DNA of 64,000 bases from Anadara kagoshimensis (lineage: Eukaryota > Mollusca > Bivalvia > Arcoida > Arcidae): the NCBI GenBank assembly GCA_021292105.1, contig CM037864.1:4436413-4500412 (forward strand), in the 5' to 3' direction. The position numbers and the translations under genes are program-made. This document shows, in pieces, positions 2,522 through 47,409 of the stretch. The first letter of the stretch is position 1, and each line of letters opens with the position of its first letter. The notes beneath the pieces are model-generated. The model had not been told where the DNA came from and made no database searches. It saw only the letters and a list, made by a program, of their open reading frames with translations.

Positions 2522-5500
2522 ATATAATATATAAGAATAGTAAAAACAAAAATACTTCCCCAAATTTATTACTTTAATGATACATGTACATAGAATTATT
2601 TTTTAATATACCACACCATTATAACATTATAATATTAAGTGGTTTTTATAAACAGTGAGAAAATGCAGTACCACCAATAATGCTAATTAGGTTGGTTCTC
2701 TTTTGTCAACATTTACCAGGTTTTGGGTTTCATAACTTTCAGTACTTTGATTTAAGAATTGTATAAACTAGAACTGTCTCTTGAGAGCCAAATACCCCCC
2801 CCCCAACATCTGTCCGGACATGATTTCAAACATACTTTTCCTTTGACCTTGACCTTTCTGATATTAACTTGGTTCGAGGTCATGACACACCTTTTGACCA
2901 TGAAGATTATTCATGTAAAGTTTTGTGACAGACGTCAAAAACAGCTATGAGATAAGGCCCAGACATGATATTAAAACATACCTTTTCTGCCGCCTTGACC
3001 TTTCTGATATGACCTTGGTTCAGGGTCAGGGCACACCTTTTGACCTTGAAGATTATTCATTTGAAGTTTTATGGCAGTCGTCTGCAGCAGGTATGAGATA
3101 TGACCTGGACACAATTTTACACAGATAGACAAGTTGATTTCTAACTTCAAACTAGCTTCTTCTTTTTTTTGGGGGGGGGGGGGTTCTTTTTTTTTGGGGG
3201 GGAGGGGTATAAAACTACATGTACTGGTTTTCATTTATCATCCACTGGTTTTTGTAAGTGAATGGAACAGTGGTATATATCCCATTGGCATATAATAAAT
3301 CTAATGAAATCAATTAACAATTTAAATACTAATAAATCTACGTCATGTGGAACCTCAAGACCAGTAGAAAGTATAAAGAAACATAAAAATAAAACACTTT
3401 TAAATGATTTTATTCAACAAATAGGGAAAGTTACAATGAAAGGACAAAATTCTTAATATTATATACACATACCATAAAAAACACTTTTAAATGATTGTAT
3501 TTAAAAAATGGGGAAAGTTACAATGTAAGGACAAAATTCTTTATATTATATACAAACCATCAAAACACTTTTAAATGATTGTATTTCAATTTAAAGAAAA
3601 TGGGAAAAGTTACAATATAAGGACAAAATTTAATATTTAACACCTTATGTCAGTATCAATGATGTTCATATTTTCCTTTGTACCATTTTATTTAAATGAC
3701 AATATTATGTTAAACATTTGTCATGCTTTCTGTTCCATATATTTTATAAAGTCATAGAGCTTTGACAATGATACAATTTTACATTATGTCAGTATCAATG
3801 ATATTCATATTTCCTATGTATCAAAAAAGAATCCCATTTTATTTAAATGGTCACAGAATGTTAAAACATTTGTCACTCTTTCTGTTCCATATATTTTATA
3901 AAGTCATAGAGCTTTGACAATGATACAATTTTACATTATGTCAGTATCAATGATATTCATATTTCCTATGTATCAAAAAAGAATCCCATTTTATTTAAAT
4001 GGTCACAGAATGTTAAAACATTTGTCACTCTTTCTGTTCCATATATTTTATAAAGTCATAGAGCTTTGACAATGATACAATTTTACATTATGTCAGTATC
4101 AATGATATTCATATTTCCTTTGTATCAAAAAAGAATCTCATTTTATTTAAATGATCACAGAATGTAAAATATTGGTCCATGTTTCTGTTTCAATTATTTC
4201 CTATAGTCATAAAACATGGCATGAAAAAAAAGCTTTGACAGTGATGAACTTTTAACTATCTTACTTATAATCTTTATAATTCATTCATATTACATTAACA
4301 AAATGAATTCAACTTTAAGTCATCACAGAATGTTGCTATAACTTTGTCCCTGTTTCTGTTACACAGATTTTTAGCTCACCTGAGCCGAAAGGCTCAGATG
4401 AGCTATTGCTATCTATCACCGTCCGTCGTCCGTCGTCCGTCGTGCGTCGTGCGTAAACTTTACATTTTAATCTTCTCCTCCAAAACTACTGAGCCAAATT
4501 TGATGACACTTGGTGATTATTATGCCTGGGTAACAGCCTTTCAAAATTGTGTTCGGGGTTTGACCACGCCCAATAATATGGCTGCCGTTACTATAAATAG
4601 CCAAAAGACAAAAAAATCTTCTTCTCTGAAACCAAAAGGTGCAGGCAAATTTTGATTACATTTTTGGATTCAGGATACCTAGATACACTAAAATTGTGTT
4701 TTTCATGAAATTGGACGAAAAATAGGTTACACGTTTTTTGCGTAAAATTATGTAATTTTTAAAATGAGACATTTATTGTTATAACTTCATAATGGCTGAA
4801 GATAATTGTATGGAGTTTTCACTGTTGATCTTGTCTTGCGATATTCTTCCGATTGATGTCAAGGTCAAAGGTCAAGGTCATGTCCCAGTTTTTGACCTGT
4901 GATAAAAAATGCTATTTTTAAACATTTCTGGTGATAATGATGTAGGATTTTTGGTTAATTGTAGGTATTGACATGACGATCATTTTGATATATCGATTAA
5001 GGTCATGGGTTCAAAGGTCAAGGTCACAGATGTACAAGTTTACCAAAATAGTTAATTATCTGCAAAACTATGAACTTTTTGTATAGGCATGTATATTAGA
5101 ATATTGTAGGTAATGGCCCAATGGTCATTTTAATTATAAATAAAGGTCATGAGTTCAAAGGTCAAGGTCACAGATGTAAACAAGTACTGAAATGATATTT
5201 ATCTCAAAAACTATAGACTTTTTGTATAGGCATGTATATTAATATTTTAGGTATTATCCTAACGATCATTTTGATATATGAATGAAGGTCATGGGTTCAA
5301 AGGTCAAGGTCACAGATGTGAATAAATACCTGAATGGTTAATTATCTTGAAAACTTAACTTTTTGTATATGCATGTATATTAGAATATTGTAGGTATTAG
5401 CCTTACAACCATTTTCATATATGAATGAAGGTTATGGGTTCAAAGGTCAAGGTCACAGATGTGAACAAGTTCTAAAATGATTATTTATCTCAAAAACTAT

Positions 5501-8500
5501 AAACCTTTTGTATAGGCATGTATATTAGAATATTTAGGTATTATCCTAATGATCATTTTGATATATGAATGAAGGTCATGGGTTCAAAGGTCAAGGTCAC
5601 AGATGCAAAAGAATACCTAAATGGTTAATTATCTTGAAAACTATTAACTTTTTGTATAGGCATGTATATTAGAATATTGTTGGTACTGGCACAGTGGTCA
5701 TTTTGATATATGAATGAAGAGCATGAGTTTAAATGTCAAGATCACAGATACAAACAAGTACTGAGATGATTATTTATCTCAAAAACTATAAACTTTTTGT
5801 ATAGGGATGTATATTAGAATATTGGCCTAATTATCATTTTGATATTTGAATGAAGCTCATGGGTTCAAAGGTCACAGGTGAGCGTTAAGGCCCATGGGCC
5901 TCTTGTCTTATTTCCTGTATTACACACCAACAATCTACCTGAACTATCTATGTCCAATCCCACTGGCCTGTCACAGATAAACAATGTCAATACCTAAATG
6001 ATCACAGAATGTTGTTATAACTTTGTCCTTGTTTCTGTAACACATATTTCACTATGAGGCTTTTCTTATTTCCTGTATTACACACAAACAATCTACCAGA
6101 ACTATCTATGTCCAGTCCCACTGGCCTGTCACAGATAAACAATGTCATTATCTAAATGATCACAGAATGTTGTTATAACTTTGTCCCTGTTTCTGTTACA
6201 CATATTTTACTATGAGGATTTTGTTATTTCCAGTATTACACACCAACAATCTGCCAGAACCATCTATGCCCATTCCGCATGGCCAATTACACCCCTGTTT
6301 AGGTGTTATCAGATACTTTAGTATCTTGCCATCTTTATCCAGGACATGTACTGCAGAGTTGTAATTGTTACTGATTATTATATGTCCATATTTATCTGTG
6401 ACTACATACTCTGGATCAAGTTTGTTCTTCCTGTTCTTGACTTGATATATAAATCTCTTCTGTCCCTGTTGGTTAACAACTACTACTTCCTTACCATCTA
6501 TAACTACAATGTCACCATTTATGTTAGTACAGATAAACAAGGGGTAGTTAAACAGTCTTGTGTTATCCAATGTGTCATGTTGTATTGTCCTGATGTGTTG
6601 TCCACTGGTTGTTATCTCCACTATCTTACTGTGCTTGTCGTTATACAACACAACAAGAACATTCCCTGCATCTGTTACAGTGATTCCCCGTGTCTCATAG
6701 CAGTCTGCTGCTGTATATATGTCTATAAATGTGTTATTTCCTGTTAACTTCTTTACTTTATTACCACCCCCAACTGTCACAAGCAGATCTCCAGATTTAG
6801 AGACAGCAGCATCATATATACAAAAGTCAGTACTGATGTTCTGTATAACTTTACCATCTGATGTCACCAGTGATATATCTCTAACATCACAATCCCATAA
6901 CCAAGCCTGGTCATTATCTGTTGTTACTACCCGACCCTTATTAATAGTAAAACTGGAAACTATCTTAGCATCTATCACAGGACTGGATGATGGAATTTGG
7001 CTGCCGTGTGTTAATGGTGCATTGATTGTTGGTTTTGTCTTCAAATCAAGTAGTCCAAACAGATGTTTAAGTTCTTCATCATCCACAGACCTGCTTATCA
7101 GGTCTGGTGGACTTACTGGGTCTGGTGGATCACATGGTCTGTATTTATCTAATCTTTGTGTTACATCTGTCACAAACTTTACCATCTCTATATTCCTATC
7201 TCTCTGTTTCCGCTCACATTGTTGTATCAGTTGATTAATTTCGGCCATTTCTCCTTGTAATCTTTGCTCCAACTCTATCATAGCTTTCTTGTTTTGTTTG
7301 TCTATATTTTGTAGTTTTGGATGATGTCAGATTCTATATGGTCTAGTCTACTTTTAAGCCGGTTGTATATAGCTTTTACTTCCTTGATTTTCTTGGTGAT
7401 AGACTCGGAGAATTCAAGTTTATTTTGAGCGATGGTTTTGATGGTATCTTTATATTTTGTGGACTTTTCATTTGTCTGCCTGATGATATTTGATAGTTGT
7501 TTTTGTTTGATATCTATAACCTCTTCCACTTTTATCATGGGGTGGTTAAGATGGACACCACTGGTAACACACTCTATGCAGATTGGACAATTACATGTTT
7601 TACAAAACATAAGCAAATCCTCTTTGGTGTGACTTGGACATTTTTCCCCTATTTGATTATTTTTATATATCTCAGCTGATTGTAAACATACGACTTTATG
7701 ATCTTTAGATATTTTGCTTTTCAAATGTATTTTCATGCAAGTTTCACATATTAGCTCATCGCAGTTGAGACACTTATAAGATATGTTGTTAATTTCACAT
7801 AGCTCACATTTCTGGTCAAGGAATACTGGCCACTGGGCATCGGGAACTTCTGACTCCGCCATTGCTATAAATTATTTCTGCTAAATGAAAAGAAAAAAGA
7901 AAAATTAGGAGTTGTGTTGTTTCAGGGCCAAGTTAAACTTTATACAATTACAATGAACTTAATTTATTCCAGTCCAGATGGTGTGGTACATTAGGTAAAT
8001 ATATATGTTCATAAATCAGTATTCTGTAGAAAAATTTAAAATAATGATTTATTTGTATACACAAGAAGTGTCTGTGAAGCTTGTTCCACCAAATTTGTAA
8101 AATTATAAGTACTTCCTAATAGGTTCATCAGGCTAGAGGTTATATTCTTTGGGGGGGGGGGGGGGGGGCTGTAGTGGAACAACTACAAACTATTGTGGAA
8201 ATGTATAACTGAAGGCTACTGTTTGATACTTGTACATGTGTCGTTACTGGTAGTGTGTGTGGCGTGAGTGGTGTGTGTCTCGTTTAAGGTATTCCGACAA
8301 CCTTGGACTTCGGGTCCCAGAACTGTATTCAGTCCCGTTGATCTGTCATGTCTGAGTGTATGTGTCATCTATGTGTGTCAGTGTGTGAGTGTAGTGCCAG
8401 GGCTTATATACCAACAACATGGAGATGACCAACAGAATAACATCATATTCATACCGTTTTTGTTTATCACATTTGTTTACAGGATTTGACAACGAGATGT

Positions 8501-17500: not shown

Positions 17501-20500
17501 TATAATGGGCAAAATTGTGTGATAGAATACTGTGAAAATTTCCAAGGTGATTGTGAAAAACAGAATACTGTAAAAATTTCCAAGGTGATTGTGAAAAACC
17601 GTAAGATTTTGAATTGTGAATGGGACAGAATGTGAGCCTCAGAGACAACCCAGCTAAGAGCCCTGTATTCTCTTACAGATATTTATATTGCTAGTAAAAT
17701 GACATATAATATTCCTGTAAATTCCATTGCTTTATAAAAAACCATGCTAATGTTGGACATTGGAAATGATTGTGAAATTAAGACTGGGTATTGTGAATAA
17801 ACCTTTATGGGACAGAAAGATACTATAGAAATAACATTTACTTGCAAAATAGGTGTGACTGTTGATTGAAACCAATGAAGATTGCCACTCTACCACGTGA
17901 TCAACACCTCTTATTGTTTGTCGGGAACATTTTGTAAAACGTTTACATCAAGAATTCTTGAAGTAACAATTTTTACAAGAAAATGTGAACTGATATGATT
18001 CTATATTCAATGGAAATAATTGTTCCACACAAATGTTAAGGAGCATCATGTGGTACACTGGTAAACCCCTTTTTGTACAGCGTTCACGATAGTGAACGCG
18101 TGTACATTGCTGTCACTTTCTTCCAAGATATCGAGCTTCTTTGCTATGAAATTATAAGATATGAGTACACCTGGAAATAGTGCGCCTGGTAAATGAGCGT
18201 GAAAGAAGTATATCTGTTTTATCGTGAGATATGTATTCTGAGACGGGTAATGCATTTGGTTACATATGCACATTTGGAATAAATTTTCGGAATACATTTC
18301 GGAATCTAGTAAAATATTGCGACTGGATACATCTAATAATTTCTGCAATTTGGCGAACTGATCTCATGTTTACAATAAAAAGTAGTTCGAGAAGTTTGCG
18401 TCCTACGATGTAAAATCATAACTTTTTAAGAAATGAACAGCAACGGCAGGTTGTTTAATTAATTCGGAAATTTAAATTTATTTTGAAGGTTATGATAACG
18501 TATTTTGATGTTGAGGCAATTGTGTCATATTTTAAAACTGTTTATCGATTAGATTTTACTTTCGTGAAAGGGAGATAATTCGTACAGTGTTGTGTTCAAA
18601 TTTTAAATACAGTCGTTTTACCAGTTCCGAACAGGGTTTCATATAAGCGCTGCTGCAGACGTCATCCACAAGCAGAGGAAATAAAATTTATGTTGTGTAA
18701 TAATACAAATGTTTACTGATTCCAAAATATCGACATCTGTCCTCAAAAACACGTGGTAGTATGTTTTCTTGAAAAAAGCATTTCCGTGATCACGATTTGT
18801 TTACATCGTTAAACTAGGTCACCAACAATCTGTCGACCTGTCCTGCACATACATTTAGGAAGCGGTTGAAGTTTATATTATTTAAACAATTAATGCCCAT
18901 ACATTCAAGTAGAAGCAAATTGAGAAAGTTATTTTGTGATTCCTTTAATTGAACGGGATTGAAATTTTAGATTATTCGGTAGTAAAAATTCGGAACTGGC
19001 AAAACAACTGATACTTCACCATTAACATGAAACGGGAATATTGTGAGTGATAATCAGCAGTTAATTAAAACCCAGATCAACAGCAAATGATCCAGTTACA
19101 TACAACCGCTAGAATGTACCCCTCATAGCGACGGTAGGATCTGCAAAACTCTACTTTCTCTCTATCCGAAATGACAAAACGATCGGGTACAACTTTTTTA
19201 AATTTTAATTACCGATTGTCTTTTTCATATATTTGAAATTATTATTTTCTACCATTTAATTCAGCAATACATGATTTGGTACATTGTTTCTTTTTCCAAA
19301 AAAAAACCCATTCGTCGGACTATGCATAGATCGACCCCCCCCCCCCCCCCCCGAATTTTCGGTTATATTCTGTCTTGCCACAACACAATGCAATTTTCCC
19401 AACTACGCTGTACAGCAGCACGACAGTGCTATGTTTAGATTGCCTACAAATGATGTTAGAATGAAAAAACTAATCACCATGACAATGTGTGAGGCTTGTA
19501 TTTTTGTATGGGTGAAATAGAATTCTAACAATACCAAAACTAGAGATTTTTGTCTCTGAGATGAAAGAAAAATATTCTGACATTAATAATTTTCAGTATT
19601 GATGACACTATTTATCATTTTTATTGGTCCAGGTCGGTTTCACAGATGTTGGTAAATTAAATGGTGTGAAGATAACTTACTACACAGACTGTGGTTACTT
19701 AGCAGCAGAACAAGCCATGCCGTTTGTGATGGACTCTAGTGACAATGGTAATTATCCCCCACCTTTTCGAAGAGAGGATATTAAATTTGAGTTTCCCTCT
19801 GTCCGTCCTTCTTTCTGTCTGTCCTTCTGCCTGTCCGTCTGAAATTCTTGTCTATGCAAATTCTCGAAAACTATGAAGCACTATTTCATAAAACTTGGCG
19901 CAAAGAAACAACTTTGATAGGAGATGCGTATATCGTTAACCTGAGTACGTTTGCACATTTTCCTGTGAGCTATTGTTCTTTGTACATAAGTGCAAATCAC
20001 ACAAAAAAGAACCTGCTGGCAGGGGACTGTAATTCACTGAATTTACTTGTTTATTTTTTAAATTTTGACACATTTATATTATTTATTCAAAAGGTGGTGC
20101 ATTTTTTCCTAGCACTAGCAAAAAAAATTTTGTTATGTTATTTTGTTGGAACCAGTCTGAAAAGAGAGGCATATATGGCCCTTCAATCTCCAGAATTTAA
20201 ATCACTTGTTTCTCAAGATAATACTATCTTCACATAATTTTCCAATTCAAATATAAAGTACATCACAAATTCAAATCTTATTACTGAAAATGGAGTGGTA
20301 AAGAGTAATGGAATTTTAAGCCCCAGTCAAGATTCTTACAATTATTAATATAGGCAGACACTGTGAAATGATGGAGGAAACTGGAGTAACATTATTTGGC
20401 ATAGAATGATTTCAATTTGTTTGTAAATATCCATATTTTCTATTTGCAACTTAAAATTAAAAATTAAATTTTTATGTAACATTCTTCTCAATGTCCACAT

Positions 20501-23500: not shown

Positions 23501-26500
23501 ATATTAACTTGTGAACATATCACTTAATCAGTACATTTATACATATTAACTGCAAATCCTTATGCTACCTATGTATTGGGTAGACCCTTCCATATGAATA
23601 TTTCTAATGAAAGGTCAAGCAGACAGGTCAATGTTGTTTACCTATATGTTGAATATTGTTTAATATATAACAAAGCATGCTACTTACAAATCAGGGATTT
23701 TCTGGCCATTTTGGGGAAAGGGACCTTGGAATGAAATTGCAAAAAATCCATTGACAAAATTTTCATTTTGAGAAAACAGGAAAACGCTCCAGCTTATTCA
23801 TTTTGAAATATTTTAATAATAATCTCACAATACTGTATGTAAAAATTTGTTCCATATGGGCTGCTATCCCTTGTACCATATGTACATTAAAGAGGTATTA
23901 CCTTGTTTGTAAATCATTTTACAGATATATGCCTAAATTTGATGTTTATGCCACTTTTACTTGAGTTTCCCCTCAGTTTTTATGAAAATCCATTTTGGGA
24001 GGTTTTGCCTACAAAATTTATAAAAAAAATGTATGCTTTTTGCACTGGAAATAGTGGTATGTGCTTTTAATACTGGTCCTAGTAAGCGGCCACACAAATA
24101 ACTGAAAATAAACTGTTGACTCTGAGATATTGCAAGCTAATACTTATCATGGCCCTCAAAAAGTTGTATGGCTTTTATCACAATATTGTTTATAAGTATG
24201 AGGTGTTTGTAGCCAAAATTATGCTGGATATATTTAATGTCCAATAGAGCCATGTTTCTTGCATTCTCAGCTAACCAACAGGAAGTGTCTACACTTCAAG
24301 AACACACATCCTGTCTCCTCTTCCCTTGTAGAAGTTTACATGTTTAACTTAATTTGCCAGTTTTCAAAGTTTTTCCTTTGCTGTTAAGATTGTGGTTTGG
24401 ACATAGACTGGTATGTTTAATTTTTTGTTTTTTATTTGAATGTTGTTATACAACACATCAGCAATTTTTGAGGTATTTGCAATAGACACAATTTTTCTTA
24501 ATATTAAAGATTAAACACAAATCCATGTAGTTTGTGGGTTTTGGGTTTTGGAAATGCGTTGTATCATTGATCTTTTGAATTAAAAATTCCTGCCTTATAC
24601 AACATGACAAATTATGTGACACCACTAAATGTAACTGCCATATTGTTTACAAAGTGGCTAGATCACGTGATCACATTGTTTCTTTTTGTTTCTTTGAGTT
24701 TGCATGGTGTGAAGTCAGGGGTTAAAATTTTTCCAGGTCTGTTCTAGGTCTGGGGCTTATTGATTTTACATTAGAGCCATTGATATCTAAGCTTTAAAAG
24801 TCCAATACACCTGTCATTCTTTTCCAAAATAACATAATTTTTTCTAAATGATAACATAATTTTACATGGATCTTTTAATTTTGATATTGGACTTTCAAAA
24901 ATTTATGCGGGACCTTCCTAAAATAAAGTCAAAAGGACCTGGACCGTCCATTACAAAACATGATTTTGAACCTCTGGATGTATTGTTTATGAACCGGTTT
25001 TATTATAGAGGTATTTATGTGAAAATATACAGTACATATAAATATTATAATGTTGCCATAGTTACCATGTTATTGTATATTAATTAAAACAGGCCAACAA
25101 ATGGAAGAAAAAGGGATTATCTGTGGTGCCAATCAGATTTTACTTGGCGTGGAATACTGGAAATTATATGCATGCCATGACTGTATATGCAGGTGATGGG
25201 AGTGTTGCCATAGCTACAGGTGGAATTGAAAGTGGACAAGGACTGAACACCAAGGTAAATGATATCAGTGGATAATGGATGTATATTGTAGTAAAAACAA
25301 ATGTGGATCTAGAATCAGAGATCCTCATATTATGGGTCATCAACCCACATTATTGCATTTATTTTTAATTAAGTATAAAGTGACCATTAAGTGTCAGAAG
25401 TAACAAACATAAGATTGCCAAAGGCACCCCCAAAAAAGGAGTGGTAAAGATAAGCCTGTCATAGACAACCCAAAATAAAGGAGTGGTAATGGTAAGAGTA
25501 CCATAGGTGCCCCAAAATAAGGGAGTGGTACACAGTCAATTTTTGCTCATGTGAAATTTACGTGATATTCTTATGAATTTCACATGAATTTCGGTTCACG
25601 TGAATTTCACGTGAGAAAAAATTGGCTGTATAGCGTTAGTCAAATCTATATATTACTGACATAAAAATCAACAAAACCATATGCTGCCATGATTTTTGCA
25701 ATAACTGATTGTGATATTTTTTTCTCTATATATCTGAAAATTATGATATTATTTTAAACTTGTGCCACAGTTATTAATCTGGTGTTGCCAGAATATTGGT
25801 GTATATCATAACAACTCTTTTTAAGCGTTGAAAACCTTTTAAACTTGAATAAAGACTGTGCATTTTTTTTTAACATAAACCCGCTAAGGGAGGGATTCGT
25901 GCAAAACGCACACTCTTCATTCAAGTAATTTCTCAACAGACCTAACAAAAATTAAAGGCAATGCTTATAATTAAAATCACATCAATAAAGAGACCAAAAG
26001 ACCAGGGTACTATGAAAAAAAAGTTTATCAATGAAATTACTCCAATTTGATCAAAAATGAAATGTGTGCATGGATTTATAATCAAGTAGCCATATTGACA
26101 AAATCAGGTCCATGAGGAAATAACCATAACTTTTTAGCCAATCAGAATGTGTAAAAATGCGATGGGTGGGTCTTGGTAAAATTAGGTCTATGAGAAAATA
26201 ATACTAATTTTTGAGCTAATCAGAATGGGTGAAAATTGTAAAATTTAATTATTTTACTGTAAATTGTTATTTTGTTTTGTAGGTGATCCAAGTAGCCGCA
26301 TATGAATTAGGTATACCCATGAATATGATCAAAATAAAACCGAGCAATACGCTTACCAATGCTAACTCCATGACAACAGGAGGGTCAGTGACAAGTGAAC
26401 TTTGTTGTCAGGTAAATATGATTAAAATAAAACCAAGCAATACTCTAACCAATGCTAACTCCATGACAACAGGAGGGTCAGTGACAAGTAAACTTTGTTG

Positions 26501-29500
26501 TCAGGTAAATATGACCAAAATAAAACCATCCAATACGTTAACCAATGCTAACTCCATGACAACAGAGGGTCTGTGACAAGTGAACTTTGTTGTCAGGTTA
26601 ATATGACCAAAATAAAACCATCCAATACGTTAACCAATGATAACTCCATGACAACAGGAGGGTCTGTGACAAGTGAACTTTGTTGTCAGGTTAATATGAC
26701 CAAAATAAAACCAAACCATCCAATACATTAACCAATGCTAACTCCATGACAACAGGAGGGTCAGTGACAAGTGAACTTTGTTGTCAGGTTAATATGACCA
26801 AAATAAAACCAAACCATCCAATACATTAACCAATGCTAACTCCATGACAACAGGAGGGTCAGTGACAAGTGAACTTTGTTGTCAGGTTAATATGACCAAA
26901 ATAAAACCAAACCATCCAATACATTAACCAATGCTAACTCCATGACAACAGGAGGGTCAGTGACAAGTGAACTTTGTTGTCAGGTTAATATGACCAAAAT
27001 AAAACCAAACCATCCAATACATTAACCAATGCTAACTCCATGACAACAGGAGGGTCAGTGACAAGTAAACTTTGTTGTCAGGTAAATATGACCAAAATAA
27101 AACCATCCAATACGTTAACCAATGCTAACTCCATGACAACAGGAGGGTCTTTGACAAGTGAACTTTGTTGTCAGGTAAATATGATCAAAATAAAACCAAG
27201 CAATACTCTAACCAATGCTAACTCCATGACAACAGGAGGGTCTGTGACAAGTGAACTTTGTTGTCAGGTAAATATGATCAAAATAAAACCAAGCAATACT
27301 CTAACCAATGCTAACTCCATGACAACAGAAGGGTCTGTGACAAGTGAACTTTGTTGTCAGGTAAATATGACCAAAATAAAACCAAGCAATACTCTAACCA
27401 ATGCTAACTCCATGACAACAGAAGGGTCTGTGACAAGTGAACTTTGTTGTCAGGTAAATATGATCAAAAAAAAACCAAGCAATATATTAACCAATGCTAA
27501 CTCCATGACAACAGGAGGGTCAGTGACAAGTGAACTTTGTTGTCAGGTAAATATGATCAAAATAAAACCAAGCAATATATTAACCAATGCTAACTCCATG
27601 ACAACAGGAGGGTCGGTGACAAGTGAACTTTGTTGTCAGGTAAATATGATCAAAATAAAACCAAGCAATATATTAACCAATGCTAACTCCATGACAACAG
27701 GAGGGTCGGTGACAAGTGAACTTTGTTGTCAGGTAAATATGATCAAAATAAAACCAAGCAATACGTTAACCAATGCTAACTCCATGACAACAGGAGGGTC
27801 GGTGACAAGTGAACTTTGTTGTCAGGTAAATATGATCAAAATAAAACCAAGCAATATGTTAACCAATGCTAACTCCATGACAACAGGAGGGTCGGTGACA
27901 AGTGAACTTTGTTGTCAGGTAAATATGATCAAAATAAAACTAAGCAATATTAACCAATGCTAACTCCATGACAACAGGAGGGTCGGTGACAAGTGAACTT
28001 TGTTGTCAGGTAAATATGATCAAAATAAAACCAAGCAATACATTAACCAATGCTAACTCCATGACAACAGGAGGGTCGGTGACAAGTGAACTTTGTTGTC
28101 AGGTAAATATGATCAAAATAAAACCAAGCAATACATTAACCAATGCTAACTCCATGACAACAGGAGGGTCGGTGACAAGTGAACTTTGTTGTCAGGTAAA
28201 TATGATCAAAAAAACCAAGCAATACGTTAACCAATGCTAACTCCATGACAACAGGAGGGTCAGTGACAAGTGAACTTTGTTGTCAGGTAAATATGATCAA
28301 AATAAAACCAAGCAATACGTTAACCAATGCTAACTCCATGACAACAGGAGGGTCGGTGACAAGTGAACTTTGTTGTCAGGTAAATATGATCAAAATAAAA
28401 CCAAGCAATACATTAACCAATGCTAACTCCATGACAACAGGAGGGTCAGTGACAAGTAAACTTTGTTGTCAGGTAAATATGATCAAAATAAAACCAAGCA
28501 ATACATTAACCAATGCTAACTCCATGACAACAGGAAGATCAGTGACAAGTGAACTTTGTTGTCAGGTAAATATGATCAAAATAAAACCAAGCAATACATT
28601 AACTAATGCTAACTCCATGACAACAGGAGGGTCGGTGACAAGTGAACTTTGTTGTCAGGTAAATATGATCAAAATAAAACCATCCAATACATTAACCAAT
28701 GATAACTCCATGACAACAGGAGGGTCGGTGACAAGTGAACTTTGTTGTCAGGTAAATATGATCAAAATAAAACCAAGCAATATATTAACCAATGCTAACT
28801 CCATGACAACAGGAGGGTCTGTGACAAGTCAACACTTGTCAGGCAAAAATGATCAAAATAAAACATCACTTATTGACTTAGTATTTTGAAATCCAAAAAT
28901 CTGTTTATTTTATGTTTTCTCTTTAAGTCTCTTTATTTGTTGCCAAGCCTCTTTATAATGCCAAAATTTGACCAAACGAATGACAGCAATGAGTCTTTAT
29001 TGTATTTGACAATATTTACATTTTGTCTGTTTTCTGTCCTCTACACAAGGTTTCAGAGCAATTGCGTTCATATCGGCTATGAACTGCAAGATCTACCTTG
29101 GTGTACCGTCACGGGAATTCCATTCACAACAATCGGCGTATGAATACACAATATGAAATACACAAAACCGGAACTATATTTAGTTTTAACTTTTTATTGA
29201 TTGTTTGCATAATTGTGATTATTTATTACCGAAATAATTGTATTTAATAAAAAATTTAACAATTTAGTAGAAATTTTGTATGCAATTTGTTGTTTTTTTC
29301 CATGCACTATTTTGTCCTAGAATTTCTGGCGCCAAACTGCACAGCTGATCAGTTGGATCTGCTGTTCCATCAGCTGTTCCGTTAATCGAAAATCGTTGTT
29401 GACAAAGCGCGGAATTAAAATTTTCTAAAATGATTTTGAACCAAGAAAAAGAATAGAAAATAGTTTTAAAAGTAAATATAACAATTGAACTGTTTAGAAA

Positions 29501-32500
29501 TGCGGTTCAAAGTCGATATGAATGCAATTGATATGCAAGGCAAACTAATCATAACGCGCTAACACGCGTTATTCAGTTTGCTTGCATATCAATTGCGTTC
29601 ATATCGACTATGAACCGCATTTCTAAACAGTTCAATTGTTCAATGTATCTTTATTACAGGCCATTATAGAATGTTGTAATCAGTTAAAGGCCAGGATGGC
29701 ACCTGTGAAAGCTAAAATGTCCAACCCAACATGGAAACAGCTCGTCGCAGAGTGTTTTAAAGAAAATGTTGATTTAGTTACCAGATACTGGTAAGACTGC
29801 CACCTAGTGGTATTTTTTTTAAATAGAATTTTATGGTTGGTTGTCTTTTCCTTACAATAACTGTAAATGTATGTAATTTCACAGGCTCAAATTCTTGCAG
29901 TGTTGTAATTTCCAACATTTTCACGAGGTGTAATTTTCATGGATCTAACTATAAGATAGAGAGTATACATTATTTTAGGCAATTTTTTTTAAAAAATCAG
30001 TACACCACAAATAAAACTAAGGTACTTTTACAGTAGTGCAATGTATAACTTCTCTATAACTTCCACTTCTCTGAAACTTGTTTTAGTTTCGCTGACCATT
30101 TACATGTTGTATAGTATATATTTATGAATCAATGAATCTCATTGCCTCAATTCAAATTCTTCTGGACAGATTTTAATATGAGAAATTTTGTCATGTCAGT
30201 GGTTTTCTCCAGGCACTCTGGTTTCCTCCATTATCTAAGAAATGACCACCTCAATATGAGTGAAAGAATCTTAACTGAGACGTAAACTCCAATAATCCAC
30301 TCCACTTTTACACAATAAATAACAGTATGTTTAGACTACTGAAATCTTTAACCCAACCCTTTTTAATTAACAAGGAATCAGTTTCTGTTTACAGTGACAA
30401 ACTTATAAATGAATTGATGAAAAAATATTTTATTTTGAAATAGAAAATTTGTTCCTCACTTAATAGAAATTGGTAAAAATGTTGGCAAATGCAAATTCAT
30501 ACCAAACAAAAGTTGATGCAGTGATATTACATGGGTATATTGTGATTATTACATGGATTTTGGGACTTACTGTCTGATAAATTGTTCTTTTTTTATATTT
30601 AGAGATGTATGGAAAACCTAGTATGAATATGCTTATTAAGGGGCATATCGTCAGGTGAGCATCAAGGCCCACTATTGGCCTCCTGACACTAGATGGATTT
30701 TGGCACTGACTGTAGGATAAATTGTTCTCTCTTTTTCATATTTAGGGATGTACCGAAAACCAAGTATGATTATGCTTATAATTCCTATGGTGTAACATGT
30801 ACAGAAGTTGAATTAGATGTTTTGACGGGAGAACATCAGATTGTCAGAGCAGATATACTGTATGATTGTGGAGAAAGGTGAGAATTTATCAGATCTCAGT
30901 TTCACAACTAAGATAATCCTTAACTTAAATCTGATCTTAACTAAGATTTTCATTAATTAACATCTTGCAAATTTGAAATCTGATTATTTTTGTTATTTTT
31001 CAATATATATTCATGAATTTAAGGTGTCATTTAGAAGGTCACTCTAAGCCTATTACATCTGACGTTCCGCAAGCAAAAAGGGCCCTTAGAACAATCCAAT
31101 CTTAATGCTGAAAAAGTTTTTTAATGCAGTATACATGTATATAGTCTCTTAAAAACATGGTTTTTGTTATTTTACCATTTTTGCTACAACTACTAGAGTG
31201 ATTACACTTTTATTAGCTCACCTGAGCCAAAGGCTCAGATGAGCTATTGCAATCTATCACCGTCCGTCGTCCGTCGTGCGTCGTGCGTCGTCCGTCGTGC
31301 GTAAACTTTACATTTTAATCTTCTCCTCCAAAACTACTGGGCCATATTTGATGAAACTTGGTGATTATCATGCCTGGGTAACAGCCTTTCAAAATTGTGT
31401 TCGGGGTTTGGCCACGCCCAACAAGATGGCCGCTGTTACTAAAAATAGCAAAAAGACAAAAAATCTTCTTCTCTGAAACCAAAAGGTGCAGGCAAATTTT
31501 GATTGGATATTTGGATTCAGCATACCTGGGAACATTAAAATTGTGTTTTTCATGAAAATTATACGAAAAATAGGTTACGCGTTTTTTGCGTAAAATTACA
31601 TAATTTTTAAAATGAGACATTTATTGTTATAACTTCATAATGGCTGAAGATAATTGTATGGAGTTTTCACTGTTGATCTTGTCTTGCAATTTTCTTCCAA
31701 TTGATGTCAAGGTCGAAGGTCAAGGTCATGTCCCAGTTTTTGACCTTTGATAAAAATGCTATTTTTGTAACATTTCTTGTGATAATGGCATAGGATTTTC
31801 AGTTATTTGTAGGTATTGACATGACGATCATTTTGATACATAGATCAGGGTCATGGGTTCAAAGGTCAAGGTCACAGATGATCAAAAATACCAAAATAGT
31901 TAATTATCTGCAAAACTAGGAATTTTTTGTATAGGCATGTATATTAGAATATTGTAGGTAATGGCACAATGGTCATTTTGATATATGAATAAAGGTCATG
32001 GGTTCAAAGGTCAAGGTCATAGACGCCAAGGAATACTTAAATGGTTAATTATCTCAAAAACTATAAACTTTTTGTATAGGCATGTATATTGGAATATTGT
32101 GGGTATTGGCTTAACAATCATTTTGATATATAAATGAAGGTCATAGGTTCAAAGGTCAAGGTCATAGACTCGAACGAATACTTAAAAGGTTAATTATCTG
32201 AAAAAATATAAATTTTTTGTATAGGCATGTATATTGGAATATTGTAGGTATTGGCCTAACGGTCATTTTGGTATATGAATGCAGATCATAGGTTCAAAGG
32301 TCAAGGTCATAGAATTAAACAAATACTTAAATGGTTAATTATCTCAAAAACTATAAACTTTTTGTATAGGCATGTATATTGGAATATTGTAGGTATTGGC
32401 CTAATGATCATTTTGATATATGAATGAAGGTCATAGGTATTAAGGTCAAGGTCATAGCTGCGAACGAATATTTAAATGGTTAATTATCTCAAAAACTATA

Positions 32501-35500
32501 ATCTTTTTGTATAGGCATGTATATTAGAATATTGTAGGCATTTGCACAACAATCATTTTGATATATGAATGAAGTTCATAGGTTCAAAGGTCAAGGTCAT
32601 AGATGCAAACTAATACTTAAATGGTTAATTATCTCAAAAACTATAAACTTTTTGTATAGGCATGTATATTAGAATATTGTAGGTATTGGCCTATTGATCA
32701 TTTTGACATATGAATGAAGGTCATAGGTTCAAAGGTCAAGGTCATTGATGCAAATGAAAACTTAAATGGTTAATTATCTCAAAAACTATAAACTCTTTGT
32801 ATAGGCATGTATATTGGAATAAGGTACGTATTGGCCTAACGATCATTTTGATATATGAATGAAGGTCATAGGTTCAAAGGTCAAGGTCATAGACGCGAAC
32901 GAATACTTAAATGGTTAATTATCTTAAAAACTATAAACTTTTTGTATAGGCATGTATATTGGAATATTGTAGGCATTTGCACAACAATCATTTTGATATA
33001 TGAATGAAGGTCATAGGTTCAAAGGTCAAGGTCATAGATGCAAACAAATACTTAAATGGTTAATTATCTCAAAAACTATAAACTCTTTGTATAGGCATGT
33101 ATATTGGAATATTGTAGGTATTGGCCTAATGCACATTTTAATATACAGATGTTTTAGCTGTTTATAAATAATATATTGTAGCTAGACTTTAAATATGTTA
33201 TATATAGCATACTTATATAATAATTATTATAATTAATTTGCAAAAATACTTGCATATTATTGGTCCTTACTGCTGAAAATTTTGATATTCTCTTTTATTA
33301 ATGTCATTGACCATTGAACCTCTGCATAAGATATGTACTCTTCCTCAGGTGAGCGTTAAGGCCCATGGGCCTCTTGTTATTTATGTTTATTTAAACCAAT
33401 GTTGGTGCTTCAAAAATATAACAAAAATCGAAAATCTCACTTTATTTTTACCTAAGGACCCTTTTTTGCATGTGGATGGTCATTATTATGATTCCCCACC
33501 ACCGAAGGTGGGGAATCATATTGTTTTCGTTCTGTTTCTTCTTCTTATTATTATTTTTATTATTCTTATTTTTATTATTCTTCTTCTTTCAAGACCATAT
33601 GCTGGCGCACATCTCGGGAACGGCTTGATGGATTTAGATGAAATTTGCTACCAATAATCTGTTGTCTGTGTAGATAATCAAGACGCGTTCATTTTCGTTA
33701 TCTTGAAGGTGGGTTGGTGGGTGTAAATAAATACGTAGTTAAATACCCGGGGAAACCAATTCTGAATGGACATAAGCTGGTTACGACACCTTAGTTATAC
33801 TAAGCCAATGCTTTCACCTATGAGTTAATCCGATTAGTGACCGTTAAAAACTTGGCGATTTTTAAAACCACAGCTTGTCACGTCACACGCCTGTACTTTA
33901 TACATTTATTGCCTTTGTTTGAGGGAGATATGAACATTTGTTCACCCTCAACAAGTCATATTTCCCGAGGGCGAAGCCCGAGGGAAATGTGACTTGTTAA
34001 GGGTGAACAAATGTTCATATCTCCCTCAAACAAAGGCAATAAATTGTTTATTATACCGAAAAATAACCATTGTAATAAGAAAGACAGAAAGAAAGAAAAA
34101 TATTTAACAAAAGACAGCATGAAAACATAATTCCTTCTCCGATTCATTGCTTTTTCTCCTATCGGAACTCATCGGAGGCAAACGTTAGAACGTCGTGACC
34201 GATTCTCCATCGATGACGTCATATCATTGTGACGTCATGGCGTGTTCCGAAGAGGTGGGATATGATGTTTTCAGAGGGATACACGATGTTTTCTCCACCC
34301 TGATCACATGATCCAAGGATCCAATCAAATTACAGATAGCATCGTATTTTTCTCATGAGGTATAATAAAAAACCTTATACAATGAGATGAATGGTGTATA
34401 CAATTTGCCTTGATAGATCAAATGGCTTCGGGGTTTTCTGTTAATCACTGACTGTGGAAGTAGAAGACAGCCCACTTTTTTAAGTTTACACCAATGAAAT
34501 GTCTCCTTTTACTGACTGACACTTTCCTAATGACCGGTATGTCGAGTACAAAAATTTGTAGTTTTAGTCGGAAATGAATCTTCCGAGTAAGCCGCCACTC
34601 TGTTACTATTAACACTTTTCAAATAAGAGATGGACAATTATTTCAGGTATTGTTCAAGTTTAAGATAAAATATTTTTGTGTCTTTTTTATTCGATTTAAA
34701 CATTGGAATTTTGGTAATTTGGACTGAAAGTTCACTTCGATTTAAACATGGGAATTTTCGTAATATTTCGTAATTTGGACTGAAAATTCGCTTCAAATTC
34801 GGCGTATCGAATTAACTAACAAATTTACATAGAAATACATAGCGATCTGACGGGACCATTTGTATCATTTCGATTTAAGCGAAATTGTGATTCAACCGAT
34901 TTCAAATTAACAACTGAACAAGAGTCGACTTTATTTCGTTTGCATCAAAAACATCTAAATAATCTATAGAGCAATGAAGATCTGAGTCTTTTAGATGCTG
35001 GAAATAACAATATGAGATTTATTCCGTATAATACACCTAAACTAATATGTACCTCAACGTGTTGAAAAGTACGTTTTTTCAATAGAGGGGGTCTTTTAAA
35101 TCGGACTATATATACAGCGTCGATCAATTTCAACACACTATACACAGAGTTGACATACATGCTTCATATAAAAATGTCCCGTCTTTTACAATTTTGACTG
35201 AGTAGATGTATCGTTATGATCATGAACCTCAAACATATAGGAATAACCGATATAAGTCGCGTAATTAAAATACAAACAGATGGCCTCCTATGATGTGTTT
35301 TGCGCATTGAATCACAATTATTAATCAATAAACTTTTTAGAAAAAATATTAAATAAACATCACAAAGGGTAACTTTTATTATATTTTATTTTGGATTTTA
35401 CAATAATACCGAATCCATCGGTGTTTATACTGTCTGACGACATCGGGAGGGCACTTGGGTATATCCTCAGGCAATGTCGACACGCTACAATATTACCTGG

Positions 35501-38500
35501 ATCTACCTGTCCATAATTAGAAGGTCTTACATTCACACCTAAGACAGCGATCTTAATCAACTCAGTCGTTAATTACTGTGTTTATTCAGTGACACTCGCC
35601 AATCCGTCACTGGCTTCAATGTGTTATCACCTGTTAATTACTGGTGACCAAGATAACGGTGAACTTTGAAAACTTGTGGTCAGAAAAATCGCAAAGCGCC
35701 GTGTTTTGTCGCAAGTTAAAGAAAACAATCGCAGTTAGCGATGCCCAGCGCAAACCCTCCCATACGTGTTCATTCATTGTAACACGCGGCGACGCCAAAT
35801 CAGAGGCCTGAGAGGGGTTCTACGAGTTTTCTTATTCAATAAAATTCATTGAAAACGTCACTTCCTATGCCGAGAAGGCCTTCCAATGTACGATTTTTCT
35901 CAACCGAAAACTTTAATTCAAATCTACTTTAACTTTCAAAGAAATTTTAAAAAGCAATCAAGGTATGATTTTTTTAGTTTACCAGGTGGGCGCGGTACAA
36001 ATGTACTTTATACACAACTGCCTTTAAAATGTAATTGTTCATCAAGGCAATATATACACAACATTAAAAACGCATGCGACGTGAAAATCACAAGATTTAC
36101 CCTTTTTGGCGACACAGTAATGAAATTGGCAACAAAATTTTACAACTGGCGATTTCCTTGACGACAGACTTTTACAACCCAGCGCTAACCCTGCTAGGGT
36201 CTTTTCACCAGATATATGCCATAAATTATTTATGGATGGTGGGGAATCATACGTAACTGGTATCCCAGTTACAATCTCTAGTTCTATATTCTAATTGTGT
36301 TTATATCTTTTATTTGTAGTGCAAAAACATAATGTCAAAATATGTCAAATTTAAGTTAAGGTAAAATCTTAGTTAAGGAGTGATTGTGAAACTAGACCCT
36401 GTTCTTTCGTAGGGCCAGGGACCTCAGTGGCCAAGTGGTGTAATATGTCTGTATATCCACACATACCTGTTGTATATCTACACACTGTATAATGCTTATA
36501 TTTTGCTGTGGTTTATTTTCGTTATATTCGCGGTCCATTGTATTCATGCAAAAATAAAACCACTGCGAAAATACATGGGTATTACCAGCTCATTAATCTT
36601 GCTAGAGTTTTTTTCCCTTAATCAGATATGACCACGAAAATATGACACCGGGAATTTACTAGCCATAGTCAAACCACGAAAATTTGACACCTTGAAAATA
36701 AAGCAATGTAAAGTATCTCTACATAAAAGTTGTACTCTATTTTGACATGTTACACTGCCCCATGTAACCTTTCAAAGATCTGTGTACCCTGAGTTGCCAT
36801 TTTTGTCACCCTTCAAAGCTGTGCTAGTTTGGCCTTTTTAACCTCAATTTGAAATTCTGCCTGACTTGCATACTTTGTCGCTAAGTTTGTTAACCATAAT
36901 GTATGAGTTACTTCCCTTTTACTGCTAAATCTTGTGTGTGTTTATGTACCCACGGAAATTTATGTACCCTGGCAAGTTAACCAATCACTATGTGAGAAAT
37001 TCCTTTTAATGGGGACATGATTATGTATTTCTGTATAACCACATATACCAGGTTATGTGGTTACAACATTTCTAGCATTTACATCAGTTATAATTATACC
37101 CCCATGTTGAAGAAGAGCAGGTGGTATACTGGTTTACCTCTGTCCTTCTGTCAGTCTGCCCAAAACAAAAATTTCATAACATTTTCTCAGCAACTACTGA
37201 ACAAAGATACTCGAAATTTTGTATGCGAGTTCAGTATGAGGTCTTATGCCACAAATACTGATTTCAAGTCTGCCAGACATCCATTTCCTGTTTAATGACT
37301 TAGTTTATTTTTCAAGATTTACAGTCAGTGGTTGAAGTTAAAAGCAGGGGTATACTAAGTGAACAGTAGCTCACAGATTTCTTGTTTATTATATTATAAT
37401 TTTGTAGTTTGAATCCAGAAATTGATGTCGGACAAGCGGAGGGAGCATTTGTTATGGGACTGGGCTACTGGTTAACCGAGGAAGCACTGTATGATCCCAC
37501 CACTGGTCAGCTGGTCACTAATGACACATGGGTAAGATTTTATATATTTTACTTATTCATGTTATTCTACCCAGTCTTTTAAGAGTTTGTATTTTTAGAA
37601 AGCATTCTCTATAGTGGCCACAAAGGGGGTGGGAGTTACTCTACAGGGGTGTCTTCAGTAAGCACTGAGACTCAGGACCTCTGTTTTTAGTTTCATCCAA
37701 AAGACTTTTCTAGTATTGGTAATCTGACGTTTTGCATCATTGGTTTTGGTAGAAGATAGTATATTTTTAGTTTCATTCAAAAGACTTTTCTAGTATTGGT
37801 AATCTGACGTTTTGCATCATTGGTTGGGCAAAAGATAAAGTATATTTACTTCTGTCACAGACGAGTTTGAACCCACAACCCCCATCTTTAGAAAGCCAGT
37901 GACACAACATGCGACTAGGTTAGGTCTGTTTATACACATAAAGTGATTTACAATAAAACAATGGTAGTTTCCCTTGGAGAAAAATTCTTTAATTTTCCCA
38001 GTTTGACCATGCTTTCAAAAACAACAGTGAAGACTAGAGATGCATCAGATATTTTGAAATATACAAACAAAATGTCTACACAGATGAAATCAAATTGTAT
38101 AATACTGTTTTTCCCCATTGTTCCTTGACATAATTTCAGGTAGTGTCACAATACAATATTTCATGTATCTGGATGTGAAAATTTTTCTAGCAATTTTATG
38201 TCAGAGAACATGCATTTTTACCACCCCACCCCACCAGAGCTATCCATGTTGTTCCTATCAGTTTCCAATGTTGGATTTCTCAAGGGTTATACCAATTTCC
38301 ATATCTATATCATCACAATCATTTAAATTAATAACATCCTTATCATTTTATTCAAGAATATGAGCAAAAATCAATTGTGTAATAATTTTGAATTATATTT
38401 CAGGAGTACAAGCCTCCGTTAGCTAAAGACATTCCAATAGATTTCCGCATTCAGTTTCTGAAGAACGCTCCAAATCCACTAGGAGTACTCAGATCAAAGG

Positions 38501-41500
38501 GTAAATATAGACAAGTCTCCCCTCTAAGAATGCTCCAAACACACTGGGAGTACTCAGATCAAAGGGTAAATAGAGACAAGTCTCCCCTCTAAGAATGCTC
38601 CAAATCCACTGGGAGTACTACGATCAAAGGGTAAATATAGACAAGTCTCCCCTCTAAGAATGCTCCAAACACACTGGGAGTACTCAGATCAAAGGGTAAA
38701 TATAGATAAGTCTCCCCTCTAAGAATGCTCCAAATCCACTGGGAGTACTACGATCAAAGGGTAAATATAGACAAGTCTCCCCTCTAAGAATGCTCCAAAC
38801 ACACTGAGAGTACTCAGATCAAAGGGTAAATATAGATAAGTCTCCCCACTAAGAATGCTCCAAACACACTGGGAGTACTCAGATCAAAGGGTAAATATAG
38901 ACAAGTCTCCCCTCTAAGAATGCTCCAAACACACTGGGAGTACTCAGATCAAAGGGTAAATATAGACAAGTCTCCCCTATAAGAACACTCTAAACCCACT
39001 GGGAGTACTCAAAACCCTTGTCATCTTCTGGTTTTGAATTTGATTGGGAGCATATCCTTGTGCAAAAATTTAGGGGAGTTTAGTGGTTTTCTCTTGAAAC
39101 TCTTGTTTTCTTCACCATCTCAGAACTGACCACCTTGATATAAGTGAAAGAATCTTGACCAGGAAAGCATGCATGGATTTTGGGAAAGCATATTCCTAGC
39201 ATGTTTTACCATAAAACATTGGTTCTTGGAAAAGATATATTTAGAACTTAGAATCCATATAAAAATGTATTTTTCATTTTAAAAAGAAAACTATTTTGAA
39301 AATCTTCTCTGTAAAGAGCCTTGGTGGCCATGGGCTCTAAAGTGCGAGGTTAAAAATCAAATCATGTCTCACCACCTAGTTTTGAATCCAACTCGGCACA
39401 GATGTTAGGATGACATTTTGCCTGTTCTTGTGTTTATATAAAATTGTAATTCTGTATTATCTTTCACTGTTTGTAACAGCCGTGGGTGAGCCACCTCTGT
39501 GTATGAGTTGTTCAGCTTTATTTGCCATAAAACATGCTGTAGAAGCTGCCAGGAAGGACAACAACCATGATACTTTTTTCCCTTTGAGTAAGTTTATACC
39601 ATGAAATCATTAACATTAGTGGTGTCCCAATTTCTGGTTTTTTTTTTTTTTTGTAGATGCTCTAACACACAAATTTAGTCTGGGCCCCAAGATATCGCAG
39701 TACTTACTGGGTTTTTTTTTTTTTGGGAGGGGGGGGGGGGGATTTGAAAATGAATAAAACTTACAAGAAACTGTAATTCATTACAATGATAGTTCAACAT
39801 AAGGTTCACATTTCTGCAGAAACTTTATTTATTTAAAACAATGTTTCGTGTTGTTCTGTGTAACTTTGTTATTATGTAGGTCGCCATTTTGTAAAAAAAA
39901 AAAAAAAAAAAAAAGGGTGAGATTACCATGATATTGTGGCAATGTTATATTTTCTGTCTACAAAGCACCAGAAGTACGAAAGCCTAGTAAGCTCATGAAT
40001 GAAAAAATTTAAAAGGCGTAATAACGCGAAATAAAGGCGTTATAATGCAAAAAAAGGCGTTATAACGCAATAACGCGAATTGAAAGGCGTTATAACGCGA
40101 AATAAAGGCGTAATAACGCGAATTAAAAGGCGTTATAACGCGAAATAAAGGCGTAATAACGCGAATTGAAAGGCGTTATAACGCAAAATAAAGGCGTAAT
40201 AACGCGAATTGAAAGGCGTTATAACGCGAATTGAAAGGCGGTATAACGCGAATAAAAAGGCATTATTACGCGAAATAAAGGCTTATTCACGTGAAGTTAA
40301 GATGCCTTCCATAATGATGTGGAGGTTCTGGGGTTTAATCTCTACCCCCACCCCCCACTTTACATACATATTAAAAGTGTGTGTGTGTGTGTGTGTGTGT
40401 GTTTCCTGCACAAATATATGTAATGTAATAAGCTGTTTTATATGTATTTATTCTATGAAAATTAAAAAAAAACTGCACATCATCCGATCCTGCGCTGAAA
40501 TGAACATACTATTTCAGTAAAACAGAAAGAAAGGTTTCTTTTCAATGTTAAAGTGTTGGTTTTTTTTCATAAAGAGTATCATTTTATATATGGGGATAGA
40601 AATCTTTTAAGTAATCTGAAATATAAACATTGATAAACATTGACAATGTACACATGGCTATTTATTAAAAAGTTCCTGTCCAATTGTCAATCGCTAACTT
40701 TTTACAAAAATTAAATGACATTTGTGACATCTTAGTATGAATAGATCTGCAGTTGCCTTAAACTATTCAAACTAAAACCAATCTGTTTGTGGTGAGGGTT
40801 GTTAACATTCTCCAGGGAAGTGACTGCTCTATACATAGACAAAAAGGCATTATAACGCCTTTCACTTTGCGTTATTACGCCTTTTAATTCGCGTTATAAT
40901 GCCTTTCAATTCGCGTTAAAACACTTTTATAAAGGCATTATAACGCCTTTATTTCGCATTATAACGCCTTTCAAGTCGCGTTATTATGCCTTTCTAAAGG
41001 CGTTATAACGCCTTTCGATTATAACGCCTTTCGATTCGCGTTATTACGCCTTTCTAAAGGCGTTATAACGCCTTTATTTCGCGTTATAACACCTTTCAAT
41101 TCGCGTTATTACGCTTTTATTTCGCGTTATAACGCCTTTCGATTCGCGTTATTACGCCTTTTAATTTTTTTTATTCATGAGCTTAATAGGCTTTCGTACC
41201 AGAAGTGTCAAAATTATTCACAAATATTAAACGAATTAAAGATTTGAAGAAACACTCGTGACCTCATTGTTTACAATCCATTATTGTTTCTTCACTTTGT
41301 GTCGCTATAAACATACTGTAATATCATGGGACCTGCATCAATGAAATAGCATTTATTACAAACTTACTATAAATGGAAACCACAAACGATGAATTTACAA
41401 CCCCACAAAATGGTATTTTCTCAGAAGCACAGAAATTGAACACAACAAAAAAAAATGATTTCACAGTAGGTACATGTATATGTCTTAAAGTATGGATTTT

Positions 41501-46274: not shown

Positions 46275-47409
46275 GGCTGAATTATCTGCCTTAACGATGG
46301 TATGATATTTTAGCTCGCCTGACCACAGGTCTTTTGAGCTTGTGGCGTAGCACAGGATGTGGGTATTTGTGCATGCATGCGTTGTTAAGACCTATTTTTG
46401 ACTTCTCTGAAACTACTGGACAGATTTCAACGAAACTTTTACAGAAGTATCCATTGGCCTGTGCAATTTAGATTTGTTCGTGGGATTATCATGGCCACCA
46501 AAACTTGGTCAAGGTGACGTAGAAGCACAAAAGATCTTCTCCAAATTGACAATTGGAGATAATCTGATGTAATATTCTCTATGGTCTTAAACTTATAGTT
46601 TGTTCATTTTGTTAAATTCTGAGGTAAAATGAGTTATTTGGTTTTTAGTTTAATTTTTAAATAATCATGAAGTAGTTTCAAATAATTATATCTTGACTAT
46701 TTAAATAGATAATGACATGGGGGTTTTCATCATTGACATATTTATTGTTATAACCTTCAAAATGAGGTCAAGGTATTTTGTAGTTTCAACTTTCTGCATA
46801 GGCATGTATATTGGAATACTGTTGGTATTGGCCTAACAATCATTTTTAAAATATAGTTGAAGGTCATGGGTTCAAAGGTCAAGGTCACAGATGCGAAAGA
46901 ATACTGAAATGGTTAATTATCTAGAAAACTATGAACTTTTATAGGCATATAAATAAGAATATTGTAGGTATAAATACAACAATCATTTTGATGTATAGAT
47001 GGAAGTCGTCGGTTCAGAGGTCAAGGTTACAGATGTGAAAGAACACTGAAATGGTTAATTATCTTGAAAGCTATAAACTTTGTGTAAAGGCATGTATATT
47101 AGAATAGTGCAGGTATTGATACAGTTATCGATTTAATATATAGATGAAGGTCATGCGTTCAAAGGTCAAGGTCACAGATGCAATAAAATACTGAAATGGA
47201 ATCTGTATCTGGAAAAGATTTTAAATCTCGACTATATGTAAAGATTTTAATTTTGGTGTTTCGGTTTTTATATTTTCTTAACATCTTAGCTAGTCTTTAT
47301 TTATCAGGTGAGCATATCAGGCTCATTGGGCCTTTCGTTTACGTTGATTCTACGATGACAGCAATATAAACAGAAATAAGATACCATCGTTAAGGCAGAT
47401 AATTCAGCC
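46275..47409. mobile_element. TA-flanked inverted-repeat element carrying a nested AGCTCxCCTGA element
   Basis: The outer ends are GGCTGAATTATCTGCCTTAA then CGATGGTAT and its exact complement at 47381-47409, flanked by TA on each side as in Tc1/mariner-type insertions. Inside, 46308-47337 is a copy of the AGCTCGCCTGA ... CAGGTGAGCATATCAGG dispersed element with GGTTCAAAGGTCAAGGTCAC units. No transposase was seen. Confidence 0.7.

Follow-up and report, generated by a model that had tools for sequence, protein, structure and literature searches.

An exon end and its splice donor repeated as a 93-bp minisatellite in three oxidase-family genes of the bivalve Anadara kagoshimensis

A 64,000-nucleotide stretch of the genome of the bivalve Anadara kagoshimensis (assembly GCA_021292105.1, contig CM037864.1, here C8, positions 4436413-4500412; hereafter "the window") holds a gene of the xanthine dehydrogenase/aldehyde oxidase family in which the 3′ end of one exon and its splice donor are repeated in tandem into the following intron, with a 93-bp unit. 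We call this gene W. A search for the unit through the genome (1.115 Gb in 36 contigs) gave three regions at first look, all of which were scored and all of which lie on C8: the one in W and one in each of two further genes, A and B. In our view the array is probably no novel device of splicing but a minisatellite, which arose when the exon end was duplicated along with its donor and which is tolerated since splicing relies on the first donor. The initial annotation of the window had offered three options, namely a length-polymorphic splice ladder, an array of decoy donors, and a neutral minisatellite tolerated through its first donor. The last of these fits best, a ladder with a conserved function finds no support, and the decoy is improbable.

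The main reason for thinking that the first donor is used is that it alone works in all three genes. Splicing to the following exon yields an open, in-frame join from donors 1 and 2 of the 26 in W, from donors 1, 2, 4 and 6-20 in A (18/53), and from donor 1 only in B (1/28), leaving donor 1 as the sole donor with such a join throughout. As had been proposed for W, the join from donor 2 is open and adds 31 codons in frame, and donors 3-26 are off-frame in the sense that none of them gives an open in-frame join.

The history we propose starts with a tandem duplication of the exon's 3′ end and donor in an ancestor of the three genes, probably before they themselves duplicated, after which array length and order would have changed at each locus. 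Donor 1, being nearest the exon, made first and best-scoring, would define the normal 129-nt exon, and the rest of the array would be removed as intron. A second safeguard may lie in the junctions between units, which we call hinges and which read AG/GT when intact (the slash marks the junction). As the letters of the unit imply, if donor 1 were spliced to an intact hinge further along, the exon end would come out as before, with a fresh donor behind it and the messenger RNA (mRNA) unchanged, so that the intron might also be removed stepwise.

The array and its host gene

The two exons around the array, which were the ones searched, match the Pfam family PF20256 (MoCoBD_2) at 2.9e-16, the molybdopterin cofactor-binding domain expected of a xanthine dehydrogenase/aldehyde oxidase. 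Against PDB sequences the same two exons gave 24 matches at E ≤ 0.001, the best being to the aldehyde oxidase 7px0 (8.2e-17). Guided by splice signals and by a diverged relative, D, at C8:30.93 Mb, we bounded 18 exons in W between 836 and 39587, and exons 2-18, with donor 1 joined to the acceptor at 29660, form a single stop-free frame. The gene extends beyond the left end of the window. Outside this exon set lie tblastx matches at 2309-2410 (unbounded, perhaps a further exon) and at 24319-24420, as does what is probably the final exon, near 41944-42036.

The source of the repeat, numbered exon 14 in the initial annotation, is the 13th of the 18 bounded exons (26283..26411, plus strand; 129 bp, 43 codons, phase 0), whose last 90 bp form the first repeat copy. 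Its authentic donor, GTAAAT at 26412..26417 on the plus strand (context CAG/GTAAAT), scores 10.9, the best of the gene's 18 donors under a small, rough matrix; both our donor and acceptor matrices were derived from the gene's own 17-18 sites. The exon after the array lies at 29660..29790 (plus strand) behind the acceptor TTTATTACAG/GCC. Donor 26412 and acceptor 29660, both named in the initial annotation, agree with these bounded exons.

Tandem Repeats Finder (TRF) places the array at 26322-28864, with a period of 93, 27.2 copies, 96% matches and a score of 4262, so that it starts within the exon, as had been noted before. In units 2-26 the 93-bp unit consists of GTA plus the final 90 bp of the exon. 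The 25 further copies occupy 26412..28751 (plus strand; 18 of 93 bp, four of 98, two of 91 and one of 92) and are bounded by AG/GT hinges. They are followed at 28752..28864 (plus strand) by a degenerate 27th copy that ends in CAG/GC (hinge 28842/28843) and then by a 28th, cut short where unique intron sequence takes over. All 26 W hinges read AG/GT (21 CAGGTAAAT, five CAGGTTAAT), which bears out the earlier count of 26 intact GT donors. The earlier statement that coding sequence and donor are copied exactly holds for the layout of the unit, but it is loose for the letters, since W units diverge by 5.2% on average. In W we thus find what marks a donor-bearing minisatellite of the IFI6 type, a tandem repeat that begins in an exon and repeats its donor.

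Between the array and the acceptor, the W intron carries a segment of about 630 bp (29015..29647, no strand assigned) that is missing from the corresponding intron in A and B. By eye, its right part contains an inverted repeat, and it looks like a mobile-element insertion.

Unit turnover at three loci

The A array (C8:4196125-4201125, minus strand) has 53 units and the B array (C8:6501045-6503658) has 28, in each case including the exon copy, and both occupy the same exon and intron as in W. In the relative D, neither this array nor the 65-bp array described below was found. Exons 6-18 were located in A and exons 2-18 in B; their borders are AG/GT, their lengths equal those in W, and they read without stops. 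The stretches retrieved showed no earlier exons of A (before 6) or of B (before 2). For exons 6-18, the ratio of non-synonymous to synonymous divergence (dN/dS) is 0.04 for W-A, 0.02 for W-B and 0.05 for A-B, at dS values of 0.134, 0.119 and 0.087. All three genes are under strong purifying selection.

The units behave differently from the exons. Their pooled pN/pS (the corresponding ratio for differences among units) is 0.41, versus an exon dN/dS of 0.02-0.05, and unit pN is 0.048 versus an exon dN of 0.003-0.005, an approximately tenfold relaxation at the amino-acid level at like silent divergence. These ratios use 91 units. Our per-site table uses 92 of the 107, leaving out 13 of other lengths and A50 and A51, which have offsetting indels; A21, which contains a stop, was also left out of the pN/pS set, the alignment used for distances and order is without A52, and the A18/A19 border was shifted one base by hand. 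The peptides of the 89 full-length non-exon units differ from the exon copy by a mean of 1.38 per 30 residues, while the three exon copies show no differences among them.

Of 107 hinges across the three loci, AG is kept at 93, GT at 102 and both at 88. GT is retained at 26/26 hinges in W, 50/53 in A and 26/28 in B, and the full AG/GT that would define a dual-specific tandem repeat at 26/26, 36/53 and 26/28. In 92 units, the minor counts at the hinge bases A, G, G and T are 13, 0, 7 and 1, against a mean of 3.8 per site, and we see no preferential conservation of the hinge over the other bases of the unit. The AG is missing from 14/53 A hinges; 13 of these read CGG/GT, a change of CAG to CGG that removes the acceptor AG and keeps the donor, and this form is absent from the 26 W and 28 B hinges. 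Unit length is divisible by 3 (93 bp) in 94/107 copies, 12 copies being 91, 92 or 98 bp and one 152 bp, and each of the three arrays contains copies of frame-shifting length.

The three loci of this one assembly differ in copy number (26 units in W, 53 in A, 28 in B) and in unit order, as they would in a neutral minisatellite. Divergence between units is alike within loci (5.2-6.7%) and between loci (5.9-6.9%), and the loci have in common no ordered series of at least three like units (at most two differences per unit), which together point to high turnover. Six unit types are common to more than one locus. The unit types would either predate the gene duplications or have moved between the genes, with their order turned over since.

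Several observations weigh against a tolerated minisatellite with a single working donor. Most of the later donors match the first in strength (80/107 hinge donors across the three loci score 10.9, as it does), and we have to assume that they are silent. Among the distinct variants of the 92 full-length units, 35 change an amino acid, 17 are silent and one is a stop, where the same spectrum predicts 39.9, 11.5 and 1.6; silent variants are in slight excess (P ~0.05), which is not seen among singleton variants alone (4 vs 3.4 expected). A pooled pN/pS below 1 and this excess possibly reflect some constraint on the units, or else the exon copy may have reseeded the array again and again. No variation occurs in 92 units at positions 81-90 (CTTTGTTGT and the base preceding it); by shuffling, an invariant run of this length has P ~0.07, and the motif with which the units were located, two errors being allowed, covers these very positions. 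Lastly, the six shared unit types could mean that exchange between the genes takes the place of common descent.

Hinges, later donors and alternative readings

The initial annotation held that no unit contains an acceptor. The letters contradict this: every W hinge is also an AG, making each unit a 93-nt segment that runs from GT to AG, and in CTTTGTTGTCAG, with which all 26 W units close, the AG is preceded by a T-rich stretch. In W15, the unit tested, CTAAC stands 50 nt before the end, and W04 and W26 have ATAAC at that place. The hinge acceptor scores 4.2 at 23/26 W hinges and 3.8 at 3/26, compared with 4.7 for the true acceptor at 29660. The gene's 18 real acceptors, among them that of exon 13, range from 1.7 to 13.3, and 15/18 score at least 4.2, which puts the hinge at the low end of the real range; of 1594 other AGs in the introns, 9.5% reach that score. 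AG precedes GT at 11/18 real donors of this gene, and duplication of an exon end plus its donor will therefore often yield GT-to-AG units with no further change.

These properties suggest that the intron might be removed partly or mainly in pieces of 93 nt or n x 93 nt, by stepwise splicing at dual-specific hinges that leaves no trace in the mRNA. Each intact unit has the letters for this, the hinge acceptor falls within the range of real ones, and excerpts of PMC10809524 document human tandem repeats in which dual-specific sites are used. We nevertheless think it unlikely that removal proceeds in this way. The A gene is constrained despite having lost the AG at 14/53 hinges, 93 nt is far under any other interval between exons in W (464 nt or more), a 65-bp array elsewhere in W is tolerated with hinge acceptors that score only -1.9 to -4.0, and the same excerpts describe dual-specific sites as underrepresented among annotated sites (PMC10809524).

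Alternatively, the many donors could act as a decoy or brake, binding the U1 small nuclear ribonucleoprotein and slowing splicing, or sending transcripts to decay, and so tune the expression of the gene copies. The abundance of hinge donors as strong as the first would suit such a role, as would the lack of an open in-frame join from W donors 3-26 or B donors 2-28. However, the donor GT is kept no better than other bases, and copy number is unequal among the loci (26, 53 and 28), which leaves this role rather improbable. A still poorer prospect is a length ladder, in which several donors are used to give enzyme forms with n x 31 extra residues. W donor 2 and 17 A donors beyond the first do give open in-frame joins, but B has no extra in-frame donor and W only one, on which grounds we set aside a conserved in-frame ladder; any insert would land inside the molybdopterin-binding domain PF20256, and amino-acid change is some ten times freer in the units than in the exons, so we regard a ladder as very unlikely. 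Long arrays of near-identical units are difficult to assemble, but an artefact of assembly or a wrong copy number is scarcely credible for three loci with unlike flanks and locus-specific variants (98-bp units in W only, CGG hinges in A only).

Further exon-end arrays and known systems

The initial annotation passed over a second donor array, and also the hinges as plausible acceptors, which make the units intron-like and would let donor 1 splice within the array without a scar; genes A and B lie beyond the window. A later exon of W (38404..38500, plus strand) also has its 3′ end repeated, together with its donor, in an array at 38461..39011 (plus strand) with a 65-bp unit, 8.5 copies and eight GTAAAT donors including the exon's own. 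A genome search for this unit returned W (8.5 copies), B (9.6) and A (2.5), plus one diverged, non-repeated match at D. The hinge reads AAAGG/GT at 8/8 W sites, with the poor acceptor scores given above, and at nine B sites the scores are 4.3 (one), 0.1 (two) and below 0 (six). We had entertained scarless AG/GT hinges as a requirement for tolerance; poor hinge acceptors in an array of the same genes weaken that idea.

A third case lies in an oxidase-family gene at C11:33362001-33382000 (L053, L054), where a single duplication (106 bp x 2.0) has copied the 3′ end and GT of the exon corresponding to the one with the 65-bp array; it lies at about 19610-19823 when the reverse complement is joined. 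Its donors are weak by the gene matrix (3.6 and 1.5), and the exon border was judged from a match of 32% identity. Across 80 exon placements in seven gene copies, seven arrays cross an exon 3′ end and none crosses a 5′ end, but these seven amount to three separate events (93, 65 and 106 bp), as two of the events are common to W, A and B. The W, A and B placements are not independent, and the exons of D, C2, C3 and C11 entered the survey as raw, unbounded tblastn matches. The family search listed 22 matches; the survey took in three family loci from C2, C3 and C11, with at least five others outside it.

In W, arrays make up 21% of the gene span. With 22 merged arrays (period ≥20, ≥1.9 copies) in 38,752 bp of gene, 2,008 of them exonic, we calculated by hand that about 1.1 left edges should fall in exons by chance and saw two, and we claim no excess of arrays at exon ends in this gene. 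Three separate exon-end events are too few to claim a bias. A bolder and rather unlikely reading is that exon 3′ ends are permissive for minisatellites, in that the first donor made would be the one used, AG/GT hinges would be scarless and growth into the intron costless, while growth across an acceptor would be selected against. If a bias of donor over acceptor ends held genome-wide, the rules of donor competition could be read from genome sequence alone.

Other repeats and open frames occur in the window. A 158-bp array (2.4 copies, 5902-6284) overlaps the 3′ end of a minus-strand open frame (6196-7326) between two oxidase exons. Arrays of 144-145 bp at 4958-5879, 31807-33145 and 46835-47199 have a like consensus by eye, and another lies in the B gene, suggesting a dispersed, satellite-like repeat. 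Two long, similar plus-strand open frames, of 417 and 412 codons when counted from stop to stop, stand in tandem at 58326-59579 and 60902-62140, and a 182-bp repeat (2.0 copies) separates them.

The repeat unit of the IFI6 minisatellite is shorter than the 93 bp found here. Our array resembles that of IFI6 (6-16, G1P3) in being a minisatellite that supplies several splice donors: in that human gene, downstream repeat units act as donors and three mRNAs result, as stated in an excerpt of PMC4526556 citing Turri 1995. The original report, by Turri, Cuin and Porter (1995, Nucleic Acids Res 23:1854), is listed in PMC2572611 under a title describing a minisatellite with multiple splice donors. Unlike in IFI6, the host here is an oxidase gene, and use of the later donors is hypothetical.

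The tandem repeats described by Duan et al. 2024 offer a second comparison. In UBC and VCX3A, each repeat unit carries AG/GT, whole units can be intron and repeat number varies freely; unit length is a multiple of 3 in 45/77 cases of such dual-specific repeats, marking a subset and not a requirement (excerpts of PMC10809524). Our array likewise has AG/GT in its units and a stretch of whole units that could be intron. It differs from UBC, whose units are coding and whose splicing is shown by reads (PMC10809524), in that the copies past the first are intronic, lie behind an existing donor and are read from sequence.

A third relation is to intron gain by tandem duplication of an exon segment containing AGGT, for which excerpts of PMC4974935 cite Rogers 1989, Hellsten 2011 and 24-bp repeats in fission yeasts. 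There, as here, a duplicated piece of exon yields GT-to-AG units that can be removed without change to the protein. In our case, however, the AGGT was already an exon/intron boundary, and an existing intron was lengthened where none was created.

A literature search on bivalve minisatellites at intron splice sites returned no paper. Set against these systems, the array is a large example of something already known. It offers a large natural test of how splicing chooses among dozens of near-identical donors in constrained genes. Three copies that differ in the hinges keeping GT (26/26, 50/53 and 26/28) and a relative without the array provide a ready comparison set, and, as in AGGT intron gain, duplication of the exon end automatically gives units shaped like introns.

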